Below are positions 22,550 to 34,629 of a DNA stretch of 34,774 nt, piece by piece. The stretch comes from Bryobacterales bacterium. GTDB taxonomy: Bacteria; Acidobacteriota; Terriglobia; Bryobacterales; Bryobacteraceae. Position 1 is the stretch's first letter; every line of letters begins with the position of its first letter. A model generated the notes under the pieces. It was not told the DNA's origin. It searched no databases and worked only from the letters and a program-made list of their open reading frames with translations. The stretch is taken from the NCBI GenBank assembly GCA_003166875.1, contig PMUN01000321.1, positions 1-34,774 of the forward strand, given 5' to 3'. The translations under genes were made by a program, and so were the position numbers.

Positions 22550-25151
22550 TTAGAAGATCACGTCGAAATCCGCCGTGTAGCGTCGCCGGTATTCCCCGAA
22601 AAATACACCGTACAGCGGATCGGCGGTGTTGGCATGGACGCTGATGGGATTGAAATGGTTCGTCAAATTCGATCCGACGATCGAAAACCGAAAAGTGTAT
22701 TTGTCCGAAACTTTGATGTCCTTCGATAAGCGCGCATCCACGGAAAGGTATGCAGGAAACCGGGACTGGTTCGGGAGGCCGGCGTATTGCTGCCGCGCAT
22801 CCACTGAAGAATATGGGAATCCGGTCCGGTATTCTACTTTGGGCATCAACTGAACCTTACTCGGAAAGCGAAGGGAACCCCATGCCAAGAAGCGATTGGG
22901 CACGTCCCCTGGAAGCGATGTATAGTAATTCGGCAATATTACGGCGGGAGGAAAGTTCGCCAGGTAGTTGTTGAAGTCGTTCAAACTTCCAGTTGCATGA
23001 GTTCGAACGTACGAAAAATAGAGAAGGTCGTTGTGCGGAGCGCGAACTGCAGCGATGACTTCAAGTTGTTTAAGCTGCGAACTGCCATTCCCATTGAGAA
23101 CGAAGGCATTGCTTCCTTGCACCATTTGAGGGTTGAGAACAATGAGGCCGTCCGAACTACTCTGTAGATAGTTCGCTCGGATTCGCAACGTAGGCAGGAG
23201 AATCTGCTCGATTTGGACGTTCCAGTTCACACTGTAGGGCGCGAAGTTGCCAGGCTGCTGTTCGTTTTGGATGAACGGGAGCTCGGATGAAGCTGCCGCT
23301 TGGGTCAGGTTGTAGAATTGCGTCGGTCCGCTGAGAATCTGTCTACCCGGCCCATAGGACGTGACGATCTGGTTCGGGTAAGCTGCGAAGCCATACACGT
23401 TCAAGGGAACACGATCGTAAAAAACTCCGGCGCCCGCTCGCACGATGGTATGCTCCCCGCCAAAGGGTGTCCAAGCGAACCCGGCACGTGGACCGATGCG
23501 AATGGTGTCGGGTAATGCGTTGCTGCTCGGCCCGGATTCCGGACTCAATCGCAAAGCGCGAGCCAACCACCCAATGGTCTTGGGCGAAGAAAGCTGTCTC
23601 GACATCGGACCTTTGAAACGGTAGCCCCGGCGTGAAGCGGATGGTTTCAAGCAGGGCACCCGCCGCGTCGAGGATATTGACAGGATGATCCTGGACCAGC
23701 CCGCGCTCCGCCGAGCCTGCGATTGTCGAGCCGAATTTCAGATTGTGAACACCCAGCCAGTTGCGGGTGAAACCAAAAGTCTCCCGCCACTCTAACCGCG
23801 ATGCAGTTCTGGACTGCTGGCTGAAATAATTTCCTTGATTTCCCCCTGGATTCAAGATCATATCCAGCGTTCCTTGCGGCCACACTCCGGCACGGAAGCT
23901 AGTGGCTGAGAGCGCACTCTCGAACAGTGCACCGCCCAGCGATGCCCGATCGCTTAATGCGGCGGCGTAGGTGGTATTGGCGGAGTTGGGCGTCACGGGT
24001 TCCGGATTGAATGCGTCCAAGTTGGCGAAACGCGTATGCTGATTCGCGATGTGAAGCGTGGCGGTCAGGATGTTCGTCGAATTGACGATGTAATCCAGCG
24101 CCGTGAATGAGTTGATGCCTTCCCGGCGCTGCTGATTGTCAGGGAACGGCAGCGTAATTACCTCGCTAGACCGCATTTCATATTGGATGGACTCGACCAA
24201 ATGGAGGCGGCTAGAAAGCATCGGGCCGCCGAAATTGACGCGTGGGGTGGCAGACTTCATACCTACCATATGCCAGCTACGGAATCGGAATTCCGGCAGC
24301 GGGTCGTTCAGCTCAAAGTGCCATGTATCGCCGCCTCGGCGAGTCTCCACTGCAACTACGTTGGATGTGAATCCGCCGTATTCAGCCAGAAACGGGCTGG
24401 TCAAGACGTTGATGGTTTGCACGCTGTCGATGGGGATGGAGGCCCCAAATTGGCCTGTCGCCGGGTCCGTGGCAGTGCCGGAATTGACTAACAGAGTGCT
24501 GCGTTGTTCCGCATTGCCTGAGAGGCTCAACTGTCCATTCGGTAATCGAAGGATTGCGGGCGCAAGCGGAAGGGCGTCCGCCACGGATGCCGGGCGGTCC
24601 GGCGTGTTCTTGACTTCAGTTCTATCCAATGCGACAGGCGTCGAGAGGCTTTCGTCCAGCGGGCTATCCACGGCTCCGACTACTGTAACGCTGTCCTTCT
24701 GAATGGTCCCTGCCGCCAGGATGGCATCCACTCGCTGCGTCGCACCTTCCATCAGGGTAACCTCAACTGTCAGCTCTTGGAAGCCCGGGGCCGTGATGCC
24801 GACCTGGTACGAGCCCGGCGCGAGGTCGGCGAAACGAATGTCGCCGGCCGTACCGGTTTCTCCGTCTCGGAATGAACCGCCAGGAGAACGAACACTCACC
24901 TTAGCACCGGGTACAGGGGCGCCCTGCTCATTTCGAGTGTTGACTTCCAGCGCAACTGCCTGCGCGCGATTCTCCGGCTGAGCCAAGCTGTCTGGCGCAG
25001 CCGACAGGGCCAGCATCATCAAGAGACTCATACCTAGCGGCAATGAATGTGAACCAGGAATGTGAACGTGAAGGCGAATCGCACGTTCGTGGCCAGTTTC
25101 TTTTGACAGGAATCTCCTTGCGACAGCGTTCGTTGGCGACCGAAATGGCAT
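22550..25151 (-). CDS. Oar-like TonB-dependent receptor with carboxypeptidase-regulatory-like N-terminal domain, split by one frameshift at 23510-23512
   Basis: VNTRNEQGAPVPGAKVSVRSPGGSFRDGETGTAGDIRFADLAPGSYQVGITAPGF; barrel with APRAGFAW-type motif. Removing one base of GGG (plus strand 23510-23512) joins the frames as RAEQQRITDTIRIGPRAGFAWTPFGGEHTIVRAGAGVFYDR. Confidence 0.88.
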
Positions 25152-25188: not shown

Positions 25189-25207
25189 GGGCGGCAAATT
25201 GTCGCCC
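25189..25207. promoter_or_regulatory. 19-bp dyad GGGCGGCAAATTGTCGCCC, candidate activator binding site
   Basis: GGGCG.CAA.TTG.CGCCC; one mismatched pair; about 100 bp upstream of the sigma-54-like -24 element. Confidence 0.5.
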
Positions 25208-25300
25208 TTGGGCTGCGTCACTAGTATGCAGAGCAGTGCACCAGATACGCTATCGCTCGCGTTTTATTTGGACAACACTCAAGTGCAATCTGGATTGAAC

Positions 25301-25316
25301 TGGCGCTACGATTGCG
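25301..25316 (+). promoter_or_regulatory. sigma-54 type -24/-12 promoter
   Basis: TGGCGC-TACGA-TTGCG against consensus TGGCAC-N5-TTGCW; GG-N10-GC spacing exact. Confidence 0.65.
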
Positions 25317-25378
25317 ATTAGTTCTTAAGTTTCAATGAAAGCTTTAGAGTCAGGTCCCCTCCAGGTTCCAGGAACAAG

Positions 25379-28141
25379 GTGAGAGCAAACTTAGCCAACA
25401 CCGTTTCGCTGGCAGCAATCGTGGTTGTCTCGGCGCTGTTCGGAACGTTTGTCTGGTGGCGGGCGCCTGGTATCGATCAATACATGCGGGACTGGATGAT
25501 CCAGGCGCGTGGCCCGCTTCCGCCGCCGGACGACATCGCTATCGTTGCCATTGACGAACCGAGCGTTGCCCGCTTCGGCCGATTCCCTTGGTCGCGCGCT
25601 CTGTCGGCGCGTGCTATCGACGTTATAGCTGCGGCGCAACCCAAAGCGATCGGGGTGGATGTCCTGTACGTTGATCCGACATCGGAAGCGGATGACGGAA
25701 CTCTGGCGCGTTCGATACAACAAGCGGGAAACGTGGTTGTCGCGGCGCAACTAGTAGCACCCCCGGCTGCTGGCGGCCCGGCAAGCTGGCTGCTGCCGTT
25801 GCCTGCTATAGAGGGGGCCGCGGCGGCAGTCGGCCATGTGAACGTTTCGACCGAGACGGACGGAATCGCCCGGCAGATTCTGATCCGGGTTGCCGATGAT
25901 CAGGGACGTGCCATCCGCGCGATGGCAGTGGAAATCATCCGTATCGGCGATGGCATTGCCGACCAATCGCTGATAGAGACTTCACGGAGCCTATTGCTCG
26001 GCTCGCGAGTCATCCCCGTGGAAAGCACCGCTCCTGGCGTGGTCATCGGCGGGGTTCCGGGCGTCGAAAGCTCGACGCTGACACTGCGCGCAGCCCGGAT
26101 GACCATCGACTATATTGGTCCTGCAGGATCCTATAGAACATACAGCTTCACGGACGTTTTGGGAGGGCGCATCCGGTCCGCCCAGTTCCGAGGCAAATAC
26201 GTGCTGGTGGGCGCGACGGCGGCTTCCTTGGGCGATCGTCTCGCTTCGCCGTTCATTCATCAAGAGGATGCAGGGCCCAGTCAGCACGGATCCTGGATGC
26301 CCGGTGTCGAAGTACTTGCTGACACGCTGAACACGATTTTGCGGTCCCGTTTCTATTCCGAAACTCCGGATTGGCTCGCGCTTCTGTGTGGCGCCCTGGT
26401 GGCGGCGCTCACTCTGTTCGGAATGACAGTGGCGCAAGGCGGTCATGAGGCAATCAAGCAAGTTGGCGTTCTGGCTGCGGTCCTCGTGGCGGTTTTGTTG
26501 GCGGGTTATCTCGCATTCACCCGTTTTCTCGTGTTTCCGCCGCTAACACTGTCTCTTGTTTCATTCGCCTCGGCGGGCGTTTTCGGACTGCTGCGACGGT
26601 CGTTGGTCGCTAGTACCCAGCTCGATAGGAGCATTGAAGACATCCAGCGTGCTGAAGAGTCCTTGAATGCAATGAGCCTGGGATCGGCGGCAGAATCGAT
26701 CGCGCGACTGGCGGACGCCGAGGCTGTAGCGATCTACGCATTGCAGGGAGGCGGGCGTATACGGTTGGTGGCAACATACGGAATTGCTATTCTCCGGAAG
26801 GGCTCTGGTGGTTTTGCGCTACCGCCTGACAACGACCACGACCGGGAACTGGTGGTGATTCCAATCGAAGGGTCGTGCGGCTCTAGTGCCGGAACGCTCG
26901 TGATCGCGCGTGCTGCCCGGGTATCATCCATCGAAATACAACAGCTTTGCGCCGCGATCGCTGGCAGCCTCGTGGAGGTTCGGGCCGAAGAAGAGAAATC
27001 GTCTCGATGGTGGTGGCCGCGAGGGCTGGCTTGGAAGGCGCGCTCTTTGAGCGATTTGAACGGCCGTATCGTGGACCGCGCGAAGTTCGTGGACTTGGCG
27101 ATGCGGTCGGTCGAAGACATACTCATTATTGCCGGAGTAGATGGACGCATCACATTTGCAAACAGGCGCGCCGCGGCGGTTCTCGACTCCTCCGAGCAGG
27201 CGCTGCGTGGCCGTGATCTGCTAGGACTGTTAGCAGAGGCCGAACAGAGTTCGCCCGAAGCCGGCCGCGATGTTTTAGTGCGCCTGGTGGTTGACCGCGC
27301 CAAGATCGAACGTGAAATCATAATTGGAAGTGCGCATCCGCGCCATTTCACTTTGCGAATGGCCGCGGTATGCTCGGGCGAGGATGGGCGCGGCGCCGTA
27401 CGGGGCATAGTCGCATCGCTTTCTGATATCACACGGCAGCACGAGTTGCAGCAAACCAAGAATGACGTCATGGCGCTGGTATCGCATGAGATGCGCACAC
27501 CCCTGACGGCTATTCAAGGCATGAGTGAGTTGCTGGCGCAATTCGAGCTCGATCCGGAACGGAGCCGTGAAATGAGTATCGCGATTCACGACGAGGCCAA
27601 GCGGCTGACGCACATGATCAACCAGTATCTCGACATTACTCGCCTCGAATCAGGGGCGACCGTCTTGCGGCGCGCGGCGGTGCGGATCGAAGCACTCCTG
27701 GAACGCACGCTATTGATGCTGGACCCATTGGCCTTGGAGCGGGGAATACGCCTGACAAGACACTTGGATTCTAATGTGACTCCCGTAATCGCCGATGCGG
27801 ACTTGCTATCGCGCGCGATCAGCAACCTGGTGTCGAATGCGGTCAAATATAGCCCGCGGAAAACGGAGGTTGTCATTTCAGCGAGGAACCTCGCCAATGG
27901 CGTTGCAATTGAAGTCGCCGATCATGGATACGGCATCCCGGAGGATAGCTTGAGTCGCATTTTCGAAAAGTTCTATCGCGTTCCCCGAGTGCAAGACGTG
28001 GATGTTCCTGGCACTGGACTTGGCCTCGCGTTGGTGCGGGAGATCGCCGAACTGCACGGCGGATCGGTTGCTGTTCAAAGTTCTGTGGGTACTGGCTCAG
28101 TATTTACTTTGTGGCTTCCGTTTTCTGAGGGAAAGAAATGA
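25379..28141 (+). CDS. CHASE2 domain membrane sensor histidine kinase with PAS
   Basis: CHASE2 (DYMRDWMIQARGPLPPPDDIAIVAIDEPSVARFGRFPWSRA..., GKYVLVGATAASLGDRLASPF), TM segments, PAS (VEDILIIAGVDGRITFANRRAAAVL), HisKA (MALVSHEMRTPLTAIQGMSELL), HATPase (GTGLGLALVREIAELHGG). GTG start. Confidence 0.93.
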   Translation: MRANLANTVSLAAIVVVSALFGTFVWWRAPGIDQYMRDWMIQARGPLPPPDDIAIVAIDEPSVARFGRFPWSRALSARAIDVIAAAQPKAIGVDVLYVDPTSEADDGTLARSIQQAGNVVVAAQLVAPPAAGGPASWLLPLPAIEGAAAAVGHVNVSTETDGIARQILIRVADDQGRAIRAMAVEIIRIGDGIADQSLIETSRSLLLGSRVIPVESTAPGVVIGGVPGVESSTLTLRAARMTIDYIGPAGSYRTYSFTDVLGGRIRSAQFRGKYVLVGATAASLGDRLASPFIHQEDAGPSQHGSWMPGVEVLADTLNTILRSRFYSETPDWLALLCGALVAALTLFGMTVAQGGHEAIKQVGVLAAVLVAVLLAGYLAFTRFLVFPPLTLSLVSFASAGVFGLLRRSLVASTQLDRSIEDIQRAEESLNAMSLGSAAESIARLADAEAVAIYALQGGGRIRLVATYGIAILRKGSGGFALPPDNDHDRELVVIPIEGSCGSSAGTLVIARAARVSSIEIQQLCAAIAGSLVEVRAEEEKSSRWWWPRGLAWKARSLSDLNGRIVDRAKFVDLAMRSVEDILIIAGVDGRITFANRRAAAVLDSSEQALRGRDLLGLLAEAEQSSPEAGRDVLVRLVVDRAKIEREIIIGSAHPRHFTLRMAAVCSGEDGRGAVRGIVASLSDITRQHELQQTKNDVMALVSHEMRTPLTAIQGMSELLAQFELDPERSREMSIAIHDEAKRLTHMINQYLDITRLESGATVLRRAAVRIEALLERTLLMLDPLALERGIRLTRHLDSNVTPVIADADLLSRAISNLVSNAVKYSPRKTEVVISARNLANGVAIEVADHGYGIPEDSLSRIFEKFYRVPRVQDVDVPGTGLGLALVREIAELHGGSVAVQSSVGTGSVFTLWLPFSEGKK

Positions 28142-29574
28142 TCGAGAAAGGTGTGCCAAGCTCATCCCCGCACATTCTTGTCGCAGACGATGAGCGTTCC
28201 ATACGGCTGATGCTCGAGGCGGGCCTGAAACTGCACGGTTTTCGGGTTACATCGGTACCCACTGGTTCAAAAGCGCTAGAAGTGGCGCGCAATGGCGGCA
28301 TCGACGCTGTGCTGAGCGACATTTACATGCCGGATGGAGGAGGTCTCGATCTCATCAAGGACATTCGGCAGCTCGACCCTACGATTCCGATCATTCTGAT
28401 GACGGCACAGGGTTCGGTCGAGGCTGCAGTCCGCGCCATGGCCGAAGGCGCGACCGACTTCATCGGGAAGCCTTTTGACGTTGCGGCGGTAATCGAACTC
28501 CTACGGCGTCACCTCGGTGCACGGCAGGAAGCTGAGTCGGCGCAGGCGTCATCGAGCATCGAGAACGTTATTTCACGTTCCGGGCTGGCTGGCCGAAGCG
28601 CGCCGATGGTGATGGTCTACAAGCTGATCGCGCAAGCTGCGCGCAGCGATGCGACGGTGCTTGTTCTGGGCGAGTCCGGAACTGGAAAAGAACTGGTGGC
28701 TCGAGCCATTCACGACTTCAGCACCCGATGTAGCCGCCCGTTTCTTTCGGTGAACTGCTCGGGTTTGACGGACACGTTGCTCGAATCGGAACTCTTTGGC
28801 TACATCCGAGGAGCTTTTACAGGCGCCGCGGGAGATCGCGGAGGTCTTTTCGAAGCCGCTGATAGCGGCACGCTGTTTCTCGACGAATTGGCCTCCACAA
28901 GCGCCGCGTTTCAAGCCAGCTTGTTGCGGGTATTGCAAAGTGGAGAAGTGCGGCGTGTCGGCTCTACTCAGGCACGCCAAGTCAATGTGCGTGTGATCGG
29001 CGCGAGCAACGCGCCGCTGCGCGAGTTGGTGGCTGCGGGAACTTTCCGGGCCGACCTCTTTTACAGGCTGAGTGTATTTAGCATTGAACTGCCTCCCCTG
29101 CGTGATCGTCCCGGGGATATCGAGTTGCTCACCACTCACTTTCTACAGAGATTTGGCGATCCCGCGAAGGTGCCGCTGCATCTTACGCGCGAGGCCATGG
29201 CCGCGCTTTCTTCGTACGGATTTCCAGGTAATGTAAGGGAGTTGGAGAACGCCCTGCGCCGGGCAGTGGCGCTCTCCTCCAGCGGCCTCATTACCGTGGA
29301 CTGCATTCCTTCGGAAATCACGGATGCCGGCCACAGATCCGGCAGTCCGGCCAGTGCCGAAAAGCGATTGATCGCGGACCGGCCGGATATGGACGAGCTA
29401 CAAAGGAGGTACCTGCAATTGATCCTCGACGAGACCGGCTGGAACCGAAGGCAGGCAGCCGCCGTCCTTCACCTTGACCGTCGAACCATTCAGCGCCTCA
29501 TCGCTCGATATAGGCTCCAGGGGGCTGCAGACCCGGAAGGTGACGCGGAGGGGGATGCCGAGCATACTGAATAA
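28138..29574 (+). CDS. NtrC-family sigma-54-dependent response regulator
   Basis: Receiver (ILVADDERSIRLMLEAGL, DAVLSDIYMPDGGGLDLI), AAA+ (GESGTGKELVARAIH, RGAFTGAAGDRGGLFEAADSGTLFLDE), Fis-type HTH (ETGWNRRQAAAVLHLDRRTIQRLIARY). Overlaps kinase stop by ATGA. Confidence 0.97.
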   Translation: MIEKGVPSSSPHILVADDERSIRLMLEAGLKLHGFRVTSVPTGSKALEVARNGGIDAVLSDIYMPDGGGLDLIKDIRQLDPTIPIILMTAQGSVEAAVRAMAEGATDFIGKPFDVAAVIELLRRHLGARQEAESAQASSSIENVISRSGLAGRSAPMVMVYKLIAQAARSDATVLVLGESGTGKELVARAIHDFSTRCSRPFLSVNCSGLTDTLLESELFGYIRGAFTGAAGDRGGLFEAADSGTLFLDELASTSAAFQASLLRVLQSGEVRRVGSTQARQVNVRVIGASNAPLRELVAAGTFRADLFYRLSVFSIELPPLRDRPGDIELLTTHFLQRFGDPAKVPLHLTREAMAALSSYGFPGNVRELENALRRAVALSSSGLITVDCIPSEITDAGHRSGSPASAEKRLIADRPDMDELQRRYLQLILDETGWNRRQAAAVLHLDRRTIQRLIARYRLQGAADPEGDAEGDAEHTE

Positions 29575-29611: not shown

Positions 29612-31675
29612 TTGAGACACCAAGCCCTCGCGACAATCGGCGACCGTGCCCTGTTCATCCTGGGCGCGGCGCTGGTATTGTGTTCCGGCATGGACGCTCA
29701 AACCGTGGCTCGCGCCACCGGCGTGACCGGACGCGCCCTGATTTTGAGCGGCAACGGAACACCCGCTATCACGCTGGCGCCTGGCTACGAGTTGGGCCCT
29801 GGGGACCGGTTGGACACGCACGGCGGCGGCCGAATCGTAATTGAACTGACCGACGGAAGCATGGTCATCGTACAGCCGGAATCTGTGATCGTGATCAAAG
29901 ACTTTCGCGCCGCTGCTTCACTCCGTGAGTTGTTTGAGATCACGCTGGGCAGCGTGCGAGTAAAGATCAATCACTTTGGCGGGCGTCCCAATCCGTATCG
30001 CATAAACAGTCCTACCGCCTCGATCGCCGTGCGTGGAACCGACTTTAGCGTCACCGTGAATAGACTTGGCGATACCCAGGTATTGGTTTACGAGGGCAGT
30101 GTCGAAGTAACCAGTCTGGCCGACCCCGCGCAATCAGTGGTCATCGAAGCAGGCCGCGGGGTGCTGCTGGTTCCGGGGCAAGGTTTTCAATTGTTCAACG
30201 TACCCTCCGCCCGCGAAATCGCGGAGCAAAATCGCGGGTCCGGCGCGGCGGGCACGGATACCCACGGAGGCCAGGGCGACGAGCGTACCTGGGATTCGCC
30301 GCGCAATATCGCTAGCATTTACGAGCAGTACATCGCCGGTCTGTCTGAAATCGGACAGGCTCCTTTCCTGCTGCGCTACAATGCTTTTCCGGAATCGCAT
30401 CTGGATAGTCTGGAAAACCCCGCATACGCCACTGGGTTCAAGGCGGCCGAAGGACGCATCGTGTTCCTACCGTCCCTGAACGGAAGCGGCGGCCTAGATG
30501 AAAACCCCACTCCGCCTGGGCTTTCCTCCTTCAGCCCACTTAATTACAGCGCTGCCACGCAGTTTTCGATGTTTGTTCCGCTGGCCAACAGCTTTGTGAT
30601 CGGTGGCAGCGTCACTGGATCGAAGATCGGAGAAGGTGTACAAGGCGCGCCGTCCGATCTCGGCTTGTCAAGCGTCTTGAGCCAGAGCGTACCCGCGAGA
30701 AGCTTACAAACCAGCGGTTCGTCAACGGGGGAGTTCATCTCGGGCTCTTTGCTCGTCGCACGGCGCTTCGGCGCGAACACCAGTGTTGGAATTGAAGTCG
30801 AAAGCTTGCGGGGGACTGGCTCCTTGGCTTCACAGATTCTTTCAACTGGACAACCGAGCGGCTCCATCGAGCGTATAGACTCCGGTTCCTCGATCTCGCA
30901 GAATCGCATTACCGCAGGCATTGAAAGAAATTTGCCGCATGATCAAAAACTCGGGATCTTTTATCGCTACAGCTTAATCGATGCTCAGGACAACGACACG
31001 AGTCATACATTGAACAACCTTCCAGAGCCGCTCGATTCGACTCGATCTTCAGGCCATTCGTCCGAATTTGGTCTTCGTCTTCGCGGACCGTTGGGTCGAA
31101 AGTTTTTCTATGGATTGGAGGCGTCCCGGCTCGGGCTGTCGCTGAGCGACAACTTGACGCGATCCATCGCGGTCGATTCGCAACAGCGGGACCGTGCGCA
31201 GCGAAGCTCCGCAGCGTTGGGCTTTGGTTATTTTCTCAATCAGCGGACAGTGTTGAGCGCCGATCTCGCCGGCGGCGTCTCGCGTGCCGGCACGGGCCGC
31301 ACGGAGACTAGCATCGGCGACCTGCTGCAGACGGGCATCCAGAACAGCCGCTTCGTCTCAGCAAACCTGGGCGTTCAAACCAAGGTGTCCTCACACCTGT
31401 TTTTGAACGCGTCACTGCTGGCCATCGGGCAGGCGTACGACCTGAGTCAGGCCACTTACCCGGATAGCCTCGGGAATACGGTCCTCATTACAGACCCGTT
31501 TCTGCCTCTGACTGCCACGGGTTACAAGTTGCCACGCCGCTCCTCCGACTTCGGCGCGGGGTGGCGCTTTTCCAACAGCCTTTTTGCGCAATACGTGTTC
31601 TCCACCTCTTACGGTGTCGATTCCGGAGGCCACACCTTCATGCTGCGCTACACGTTCCGCTTGCACGGCGAATAA
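29612..31675 (+). CDS. FecR-domain protein with C-terminal beta-barrel-like region
   Basis: FecR (GPGDRLDTHGGGRIVIELTDGSMVIVQPESVIVIKDF...RINSPTASIAVRGTDFSVTVNRLGDTQVLVYEGSVEV); repeated beta-strand-like C-terminal region ending FMLRYTFRLHGE. TTG start; 37 nt after the regulator. Confidence 0.85.
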   Translation: MRHQALATIGDRALFILGAALVLCSGMDAQTVARATGVTGRALILSGNGTPAITLAPGYELGPGDRLDTHGGGRIVIELTDGSMVIVQPESVIVIKDFRAAASLRELFEITLGSVRVKINHFGGRPNPYRINSPTASIAVRGTDFSVTVNRLGDTQVLVYEGSVEVTSLADPAQSVVIEAGRGVLLVPGQGFQLFNVPSAREIAEQNRGSGAAGTDTHGGQGDERTWDSPRNIASIYEQYIAGLSEIGQAPFLLRYNAFPESHLDSLENPAYATGFKAAEGRIVFLPSLNGSGGLDENPTPPGLSSFSPLNYSAATQFSMFVPLANSFVIGGSVTGSKIGEGVQGAPSDLGLSSVLSQSVPARSLQTSGSSTGEFISGSLLVARRFGANTSVGIEVESLRGTGSLASQILSTGQPSGSIERIDSGSSISQNRITAGIERNLPHDQKLGIFYRYSLIDAQDNDTSHTLNNLPEPLDSTRSSGHSSEFGLRLRGPLGRKFFYGLEASRLGLSLSDNLTRSIAVDSQQRDRAQRSSAALGFGYFLNQRTVLSADLAGGVSRAGTGRTETSIGDLLQTGIQNSRFVSANLGVQTKVSSHLFLNASLLAIGQAYDLSQATYPDSLGNTVLITDPFLPLTATGYKLPRRSSDFGAGWRFSNSLFAQYVFSTSYGVDSGGHTFMLRYTFRLHGE

Positions 31676-32000: not shown

Positions 32001-32705
32001 TTATGGCGCGTCATCTTTCCCTGCGCGGTGCTTTCGTGAAAACTTGCGGTTTATGTCCGGCCAGAACTCCTTCAAGATATTCGCCGCCATGTCGACCCCG
32101 AGTTGAACACCGAGTTTGGAGACTGCATTGGTGGCCGTCCGATTATCCGGATAGTACGCGGTCGAAATCGCCACGGCGGTTGAATTGCCGATGATCTCTG
32201 AAAAATTGAACTGCGTATGATCGGAATCCGTGTGAGTCCAGAAGATCTGGCCGGCCGCGCTTCCCAGGCGCGACCAGACTGTTCCTGTCCCGCGCCGGAA
32301 GTAGCGAGGGTCCTGGTGAAGCAGCACGGGATAGATTGCTTCCGTCATCATGTCTCCGATCACGAAATCGGCGTAGGACGTCCCCAGGTACCGAGCGTAA
32401 CCCTTTACTCCTTGCCCGAACGCCGGAGTCGCGTTCGTCAACTGAGCTTCGCCCGCGAACAATACGGCAAGTGCGGCGGTACCGCGGTCAAACGATTCCT
32501 CCGTAGCAATCTTGAACTTTTCTTCAGGAGTGAGTGGCTTATAGGGATGTAAACTCGCGGAAGTCCGAAAGTTAGGAATGATCCAGAATATTCGTTTGTC
32601 GTCGGGTTGCGCCGGATTCGGTGTGGGTGAGGGCTGCTGGCCCAGCCCAACGCTCGAACCGAGGGTGCAAAGAGCGACGAACAAAACGCGTCCATGAGAG
32701 AGCAT
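32001..32705 (-). CDS. secreted hypothetical protein of acidobacterial type
   Basis: 234 aa; signal peptide; LTPEEKFKIATEESFDRGTAALAVLFAGEAQ, GDMMTEAIYPVLLHQDPRYFRRGTGTVWSRLG. Confidence 0.75.
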   Translation of the reverse strand: MLSHGRVLFVALCTLGSSVGLGQQPSPTPNPAQPDDKRIFWIIPNFRTSASLHPYKPLTPEEKFKIATEESFDRGTAALAVLFAGEAQLTNATPAFGQGVKGYARYLGTSYADFVIGDMMTEAIYPVLLHQDPRYFRRGTGTVWSRLGSAAGQIFWTHTDSDHTQFNFSEIIGNSTAVAISTAYYPDNRTATNAVSKLGVQLGVDMAANILKEFWPDINRKFSRKHRAGKDDAP

Positions 32706-32796
32706 GCGTTCCAGCGTGCACGAGAAGTACCAGCCTCAACGCTCGGAACAGAGCAGCGAGCTTCATAGTGGAGCCTTGACGCGTTGTCCTAGCCGC

Positions 32797-32850
32797 GAAC
32801 ACGGCGGCAAACTGCCACATGCCGGGCGAAGACTGCGACACTTTGCCCAC
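32797..32850. repeat. 54-bp repeat, copy A (between 32705- gene and hpnJ)
   Basis: 43/54 identical without gaps to 34576-34629; contains imperfect dyad CAAACTGCCACA / TGCGACACTTTG. Confidence 0.75.
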
Positions 32851-33087: not shown

Positions 33088-34539
33088 ATGCGAACACTAT
33101 TTTTGAATCCGCCCTCGTTCGAGGGTTTTGACGGAGGTGCCAACTCACGGTGGCCCGCCACGCGCGAAATAGAGTCCTACTGGTACCCGGTGTGGCTTTG
33201 TTACCCCGCCGGAATGCTGCCGGACAGCAAGGTTGTAGATGCTCCGCCGCACAAGATATCGGTTGCGCAGATCGTCGAATTGTCAAAAGATTTCGAGCTC
33301 CTCGTGTTGTTTACTTCAAGCGTGGGCTTCCACGTCGACCTGAAGATCGCGGAAATGATAAAAGACACGAACCCGAAATTGAAGGTGGCATTTGTCGGGC
33401 CGCCGGTTACGATCGATCCGGAGAAGGCGCTTCAGAATCCAGCAGTCGATTTTATCGTGCGACGCGAATTCGATTATCAGATCGCCCGCTACGCCACTGG
33501 TACGCCGCTCGAAGAATTGCCCGGCGTGAGCTTCCGGAAAAATGGCGGCATTACACACAATCTCGAGGGCGGGGTTATTGAAAACCTAGACGAGCTACCT
33601 TGGGTGACGAAGACCTACAAGCGCGACCTCGACGTAACACGCTACAACGTTCCGTTCCTGCATCATCCGTACATCTCCTTGTACACCTCGCGTGGGTGTC
33701 CCGCTATGTGCACTTTCTGCCTCTGGCCACAGACGCATTCTGGACACCGGTGGCGCCTGCGCTCAAGCGACGACGTTGCAGCGGAGGTCCGCTATGCGGT
33801 CAGCACCTTTCCGGAGGTCAAGGAGATCTTTTTCGATGACGATACCTTCAATTACCGGAAGGCCCGTACGCTTGAGTTGTGTGCGAAGCTCAAGCCTCTC
33901 AAATTTACTTGGTCGTGTACCTCACGGGTGACAACGGATTACGAAACGCTCAAAGCGATGAAGGAATCGGGATGCCGTTTGCTGATCGTCGGATATGAAT
34001 CTGGCGATCCGCAGATCCTGAAAAACATCAAGAAGGGCGCCACCGTCGAGATGGCGCTGCGATTCACTGAGAATTGCAAAAAGCTGGGCCTCACGATCCA
34101 CGGAGATTTCATCGTCGGGTTACCCGGCGAAACGCGGGAGACAATTCGACGGACGATTGACTTTGCAAAACGCCTCGACACTGAAACCATCCAGGTATCG
34201 ATCGCGCACGCACTTCCCGGCACGGAACTCCACAACTATGCCGTCCAGAACGGATTGATCAATCTCTCGATGGCCGACGAGGCGGGCCATCAGCTCCCGA
34301 ACATCACATACCCAGGACTGGACGAAGCGGAACTAGTGGACTCGGTCGAACGCTTCTACGACGAGTACTATTTTCGGCCGGGTGTAGTATGGCGTATGGT
34401 CCGCAAGACAATTCTCAATTCTCACGAGCGGCACAGGCTGGCCAAGGAGGCACGCGAGTATCTGTCTTTACGTTCCAAGCGCAAACGGTTCGTGGTTGAC
34501 CAGCGCAAAGTCGTGGCGGCAAGTGCCGCGACTGAGTAG
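33088..34539 (+). CDS. hpnJ: B12-binding-domain radical SAM protein HpnJ (hopanoid side-chain modification)
   Basis: MRTLFLNPPSFEGFDGGANSRWPATREIESYWYPVWLCYPAGMLPDSKVVDAPPH; radical SAM CxxxCxxC in SRGCPAMCTFCLWPQ; HGDFIVGLPGETRETI. Confidence 0.9.
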   Translation: MRTLFLNPPSFEGFDGGANSRWPATREIESYWYPVWLCYPAGMLPDSKVVDAPPHKISVAQIVELSKDFELLVLFTSSVGFHVDLKIAEMIKDTNPKLKVAFVGPPVTIDPEKALQNPAVDFIVRREFDYQIARYATGTPLEELPGVSFRKNGGITHNLEGGVIENLDELPWVTKTYKRDLDVTRYNVPFLHHPYISLYTSRGCPAMCTFCLWPQTHSGHRWRLRSSDDVAAEVRYAVSTFPEVKEIFFDDDTFNYRKARTLELCAKLKPLKFTWSCTSRVTTDYETLKAMKESGCRLLIVGYESGDPQILKNIKKGATVEMALRFTENCKKLGLTIHGDFIVGLPGETRETIRRTIDFAKRLDTETIQVSIAHALPGTELHNYAVQNGLINLSMADEAGHQLPNITYPGLDEAELVDSVERFYDEYYFRPGVVWRMVRKTILNSHERHRLAKEAREYLSLRSKRKRFVVDQRKVVAASAATE

Positions 34540-34575: not shown

Positions 34576-34629
34576 GAACACGGTGACAAACTGCCGCATC
34601 CGTGACGAATAGCGCGACAGTTTGCCCAC
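34576..34629. repeat. 54-bp repeat, copy B (just downstream of hpnJ)
   Basis: See copy A; contains dyad CAAACTGCCGCA / CGCGACAGTTTG. Confidence 0.75.

Follow-up and report, generated by a model that had tools for sequence, protein, structure and literature searches.

Sequence evidence for a probably autoregulated sigma-54 operon encoding a CHASE2 histidine kinase and an NtrC-type activator in Bryobacterales

Overview of the operon

A palindromic dyad at positions 25189–25207 very probably acts as the enhancer of the NtrC-type regulator encoded in the operon that it precedes, and an element at 25301–25316 as the sigma-54 promoter of the same operon, within a circuit of positive autoregulation that also takes in a few nearby genes. 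This reading is based on the elements themselves, on their conservation, spacing and co-occurrence, and on their recurrence at neighbouring genes. Positive autoregulation had been offered as the simplest model in the preliminary description, and it is well supported by sequence because dyad and promoter are conserved, a search that starts from the dyad motif leads back to the operon, the dyad is enriched among genomes carrying the regulator and it recurs at neighbouring genes. The window, which denotes the whole stretch of 34,774 nucleotides analysed here, is contig 187 of an 8.0 Mb draft genome (a Bryobacterales MAG, Acidobacteriota) whose nearest relatives are Bryobacterales MAGs with isolate names starting "palsa". 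The rpoN gene that a sigma-54 promoter requires is present in this genome in single copy, with one Sigma54_DBD match (E 2e-57).

The operon opens on the forward strand with a CHASE2-PAS histidine kinase of 920 residues (25379–28141, GTG start), in which Pfam CHASE2 (5e-49), PAS_4, HisKA and HATPase_c domains are recognised. The start of the regulator gene overlaps the stop codon of the kinase gene. The encoded response regulator (28138–29574, forward strand, 478 residues) matches Response_reg, Sigma54_activat (6e-63), AAA_lid and HTH_8 and contains the sequences GESGTGKE, GAFTGA and GTLFLDE. Thus the claim that the second gene encodes a GAFTGA-bearing sigma-54 activator holds, the protein displaying the receiver domain, the AAA+ domain with Walker A and B motifs and GAFTGA, and the C-terminal Fis-type helix-turn-helix that define NtrC-type enhancer-binding proteins. 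The third gene (29612–31675, forward strand) encodes a secreted protein of 687 residues with a FecR domain (1e-13) and a C-terminal 16-strand barrel. In the AlphaFold model the 16 strands span residues 279–684, with a mean pLDDT of 69 and values mostly of 75–95 in the barrel strands, and fold comparison matches the barrel, with low TM-scores, to FadL/TodX/CymA-like channels and to siderophore receptors. The protein is thus predicted to place an outer-membrane barrel behind a FecR domain. The same FecR-barrel fusion is kept as the third gene of the operon in the carriers whose region is readable.

The predicted promoter and the upstream dyad

The TGGCGC-N5-TTGCG element reported at 25301–25316 is present on the forward strand as TGGCGCTACGATTGCG, with exact GG-N10-GC spacing in a context resembling YTGGCACG-N4-TTGCW, and is conserved in orthologues. 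Among the sigma-54-like matches between the dyad and the start codon it ranks clearly first (P = 0.003 from shuffles of the region; the weights of the score were assigned by hand, following the published consensus). The C of the -12 element lies at 25315, so transcription is predicted to start near 25327, leaving a leader of about 52 nt (25327–25378) to the GTG at 25379, in agreement with the start site and the leader of roughly 50 nt proposed earlier. An SD-like AGGA is located about 8 nt before the GTG.

The dyad, GGGCGGCAAATTGTCGCCC, is a proposed upstream activating sequence in which eight of the nine arm pairs match and a single pair is mismatched. It had been described as a 19-bp dyad about 103 bp upstream of the -24 element, and its centre was located 104 bp from the -24 GG. 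Measured to the predicted start, the centre lies at about 129 bp in the window and at about 85–130 bp in the relatives, within the range of about 80–150 bp of palindromic enhancers. The dyad is kept with few changes at most in G002 and G034, and a scan of genome contigs returned related loci whose upstream regions have diverged overall while retaining this palindrome, whose consensus is GGYGGCAANTTGCCRCC. A literature search found no description of the motif GGYGGCAANTTGCCRCC and nothing relevant on the dyad motif or on helical phasing.

Conservation and spacing among carriers of the regulator

A census of 237 genomes of the family identified 18 carriers of the regulator at ≥70% identity, 17 of which are testable, the upstream region of the remaining one (G264) lying off its contig. 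The dyad was counted as conserved when it contained the core GGCAANTTGCC with no more than two mismatches to the 17-bp consensus. Alignment of the upstream regions of orthologues had been suggested in the preliminary description, with non-conservation named as the outcome that would speak against the model; the dyad was found before the operon in all 17 testable carriers. In 15 of them the best GG-N10-GC element lies on the kinase side, 59–104 bp from the dyad centre; examples are TGGCAAGCGACGTGCC, TGGTATCCGGCTTGCG, TGGCCACTGGATTGCG, TGGCAAATGCTGTGCT and ATGGGGCGGGAATTGCA. Both exceptions keep the dyad. In G032, where the locus is on the other strand, a TIG gene heads the operon and is itself preceded by the dyad and, at 62 bp, by a weak candidate element, CGGTCGACGGCCTGCC. 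In G265, a single case from a draft genome, the -24 GG is lost, the kinase gene carries a large internal deletion (L148 639–2650) and the regulator is intact. Searching with the dyad alone reached kinase, regulator or FecR genes in six genomes that had no part in defining the motif (G075, G246, G262, G263, G265 and G267). One of these, G075, has a kinase of 37% identity preceded by a dyad and an element at 82 bp, and a second such pair, at 72 bp, follows its FecR gene.

The discriminating power of the dyad depends on how strictly it is defined. With the looser motif CGNCAANTTGNCG the genome shows no enrichment (36 matches, 32 for the control), and allowing one mismatch to the 17-bp motif brings the family close to background. 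Carriers are set apart from the other genomes by the exact 16-bp form alone: 15 of the 18 carriers contain GCGGCAANTTGCCRCC, as do 19 of the 219 others (Fisher 6e-12), and its reversed control pattern is present in 12 of the 237. Among genomes lacking the regulator the exact dyad is thus present at a low rate, and a clear sigma-54 element is missing beside several of the dyads that have no link to the operon. The dyads in L113, L156 and L157 share common flanking elements that look like one related coding sequence and were treated as unrelated.

The best sigma-54 score in the direction of the kinase has a median of 11.2, which is higher than the 8.2 obtained next to dyads that have no link to the operon (Mann-Whitney 4e-7) and than the 7.4 obtained when the operon's dyads are scored on their other strand (P = 5e-5). 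The compared values were entered by hand and come from relatives that are not fully independent. Single matches in L042, L044, L046 and L049 are not significant individually (P 0.1–0.4). The distances from dyad to promoter cluster at about 60, 70, 82 and 103 bp and are in phase with a 10.5-bp period; the Rayleigh test, which here rests on few independent spacings, gave P ~0.002 with one value per lineage and 0.02 with the four spacing classes alone. This suggests that insertions and deletions between the two sites tend to be retained as whole helical turns, a phasing not seen in the second targets taken alone (P 0.25).

Alternative explanations

One-mismatch versions of TGGC-N7-TTGCW are common in the window (20 found, about 17 expected by chance), so the case for the promoter depends on its context. 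The possibility that TGGCGCTACGATTGCG is a chance match, the operon being served by another, unrecognised promoter, draws on this abundance and is nevertheless extremely unlikely. The 15-mer TGGCGCTACGATTGC is letter-identical in the window, G002 and G034, whose kinases are 93% and 81–83% identical to that of the window, respectively; in G034, where the divergent gene differs, it sits within a region of only about 64% identity. Furthermore, GG-N10-GC recurs at a constrained distance in the 15 carriers (combined P ~5e-6, seven lineages), and the stretch from dyad to start codon yielded no sigma-70-type promoter. Position and conservation thus lift the predicted promoter above a chance match. 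It is very unlikely, too, that the dyad serves mainly the divergent CarboxypepD outer-membrane gene, whose start codon is probably at 25031, and that its position upstream of the kinase is incidental. The dyad does lie between divergent genes, and a tentative -24/-12 candidate, CTGGCCACGAACGTGCG (25080–25096, reverse strand, score 9.9), is found 104 bp away on its other side, in G002 as in the window; a similar sequence, CTGGCGATGAACGTGCC, precedes a different gene in G034. However, the divergent gene varies by lineage, encoding a CarboxypepD barrel in the window, a PAP2 phosphatase in G034 or a small secreted protein, whereas dyad and forward element are constant, and the sigma-54 scores are lower on the opposite strand. 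A bidirectional role of the dyad, additional to the forward one, is possible. In the window the CarboxypepD/outer-membrane barrel gene (22550–25151, reverse strand) is split into two overlapping frames, which is a frameshift or an assembly error; in G002 it is a single frame of 886 residues (L037:6530–9190).

Binding of the dyad by the operon's own regulator is an inference, and the dyad might instead be bound by a repressor or activator encoded elsewhere, a genuine sigma-54 promoter being driven by another NtrC-type activator. The genome is probably rich in such activators (159 candidates at a first look, 6 of them scored) and dyads are present in genomes without this regulator, but this explanation is unlikely given that the presence of the dyad tracks that of the regulator across the family, that every testable carrier has it linked to the operon, that its distance from the sigma-54 element is restricted as in an enhancer, and that dyad sites recur beside the operon.

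Proposed mechanism and relation to known systems

In the model of positive autoregulation, the CHASE2 kinase would sense an envelope signal and phosphorylate the regulator, which would then bind the palindrome as a dimer and oligomerise. With the DNA looped, ATP hydrolysis acting through the GAFTGA loop would open E-sigma54 at the promoter, making expression dependent on rpoN. The output would be more kinase, regulator and FecR-barrel protein, and expression would also rise for a small number of neighbouring envelope and secondary-metabolism genes that lie behind the same dyad. This is the ordinary mechanism of enhancer-binding proteins (PMC7057263).

The arrangement resembles autoregulated NtrC systems of the ZraS/ZraR type, ZraS/ZraR being described as autoregulating its own operon (PMC12316311): kinase and GAFTGA regulator share one operon with an upstream site and a -24/-12 promoter, and feedback on the operon is here suggested by sequence. 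In contrast to ZraS/ZraR, the sensor is of the CHASE2 type, the third gene encodes a FecR-barrel protein and the targets are others. The regulator falls below the NCBIfam equivalog cut-offs for NtrC (393.8 bits, cut-off 558.6), AtoC (392.6, cut-off 714), ZraR (345.4, cut-off 760) and PrsR (TIGR02915; 313.5, cut-off 502.6). PrsK/PrsR is a two-component sigma-54 activator system thought to control genes for secreted or surface proteins (PMC9850573, PMC1569441); the PEP-CTERM systems of this kind share the predicted enhancer upstream of RpoN promoters, whereas the kinase of the window has a CHASE2 sensor and a PEP-CTERM target was not identified here. The Burkholderia BiofilmReg operon (PMC5192318) similarly unites a CHASE2-PAS histidine kinase, an exported FecR-domain protein and a response regulator. 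Its regulator is, however, of the OmpR/CreB type, its FecR domain is joined to LysM and its gene order differs, while the window encodes a Sigma54_activat regulator and a FecR domain followed by a barrel, with no LysM. Reconstructions of Desulfovibrio sigma-54 regulons (PMC4641369) likewise describe an autoregulated activator with a conserved upstream motif and a -24/-12 promoter, although in another phylum.

The literature search found no paper joining CHASE2 with sigma-54, and Acidobacteria are not named in a recent broad survey of sigma-54 (PMC12316311); two-component sigma-54 regulons of Acidobacteriota appear to be hardly described. As far as sequence can tell, the window system is a new regulon with a mechanism of an already known kind, that of an autoregulated NtrC-type two-component system. 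A regulator, its probable operator, promoters and a short list of targets are now proposed for these uncultured soil bacteria, and the system makes the role of CHASE2 and FecR-barrel proteins testable.

Candidate targets beyond the operon

The preliminary description overlooked further dyad-promoter pairs close to the operon, which make it probable that the regulator acts on other genes as well as on its own operon. A second dyad, GGCGGCAAACTGCCACA, is located at 32803–32819 with two mismatches to the consensus and is also present in G002 (L037:16328) and G034 (L111:4680). At 80 bp from it, on the reverse strand, the -24/-12-like sequence CTGGTACTTCTCGTGCA (32717–32733, score 13.1) precedes a gene for a secreted protein of 234 residues (32001–32705, reverse strand), the proposed second target; the G034 counterpart of the element, CTGGTACTTGCCGTGCA, is 79 bp from its dyad, and an orthologue of 81% identity occupies the same place in that genome. 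The secreted protein matched no Pfam or NCBIfam family.

An exact dyad also precedes a FAD oxidoreductase-YceI operon, on another contig in G000 and downstream on the operon contig in G002, where the operon additionally includes PAP2 and CarboxypepD barrel genes. The sigma-54 element of this target is weaker in both genomes, lying 107–108 bp from the dyad, out of phase and with CGG at -24. In G065 the dyad after the FecR gene stands before genes for a CxxCH-containing TIG protein, an aminotransferase and a FAD oxidoreductase, and in G075 (L147 8301–11872) an operon of aminotransferase, type III polyketide synthase and flavin/FAD oxidoreductase genes directly follows the FecR gene, with a dyad and a good sigma-54 element ahead of it. 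Homologues thus recur behind the dyad: PAP2 proteins in G002 and G034 (76% identical), TIG proteins in G032 and G065 (49%), aminotransferases in G065 and G075 (61%) and FAD oxidoreductases in three lineages (46–50%). It is difficult to account for such homologous genes in differing arrangements other than through control by the dyad. The data do not support a general phenolic-lipid regulon, since no dyad lies close to the type III polyketide genes of G000, G002 and G032. More tentatively, these genes may belong to an undescribed Bryobacterales sigma-54 regulon in which the operator GGYGGCAANTTGCCRCC, held in helical register with the promoter, follows envelope and flavin/aminotransferase/type III polyketide genes when they change place in the genome and would couple a CHASE2/FecR-barrel surface sensor to envelope or lipid metabolism.

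The window also encodes, at 33088–34536, the hopanoid-associated radical SAM protein HpnJ (TIGR03471, above cut-off), and a dyad-like sequence, GGTGACAAACTGCCGCA, lies after this gene, at 34582.
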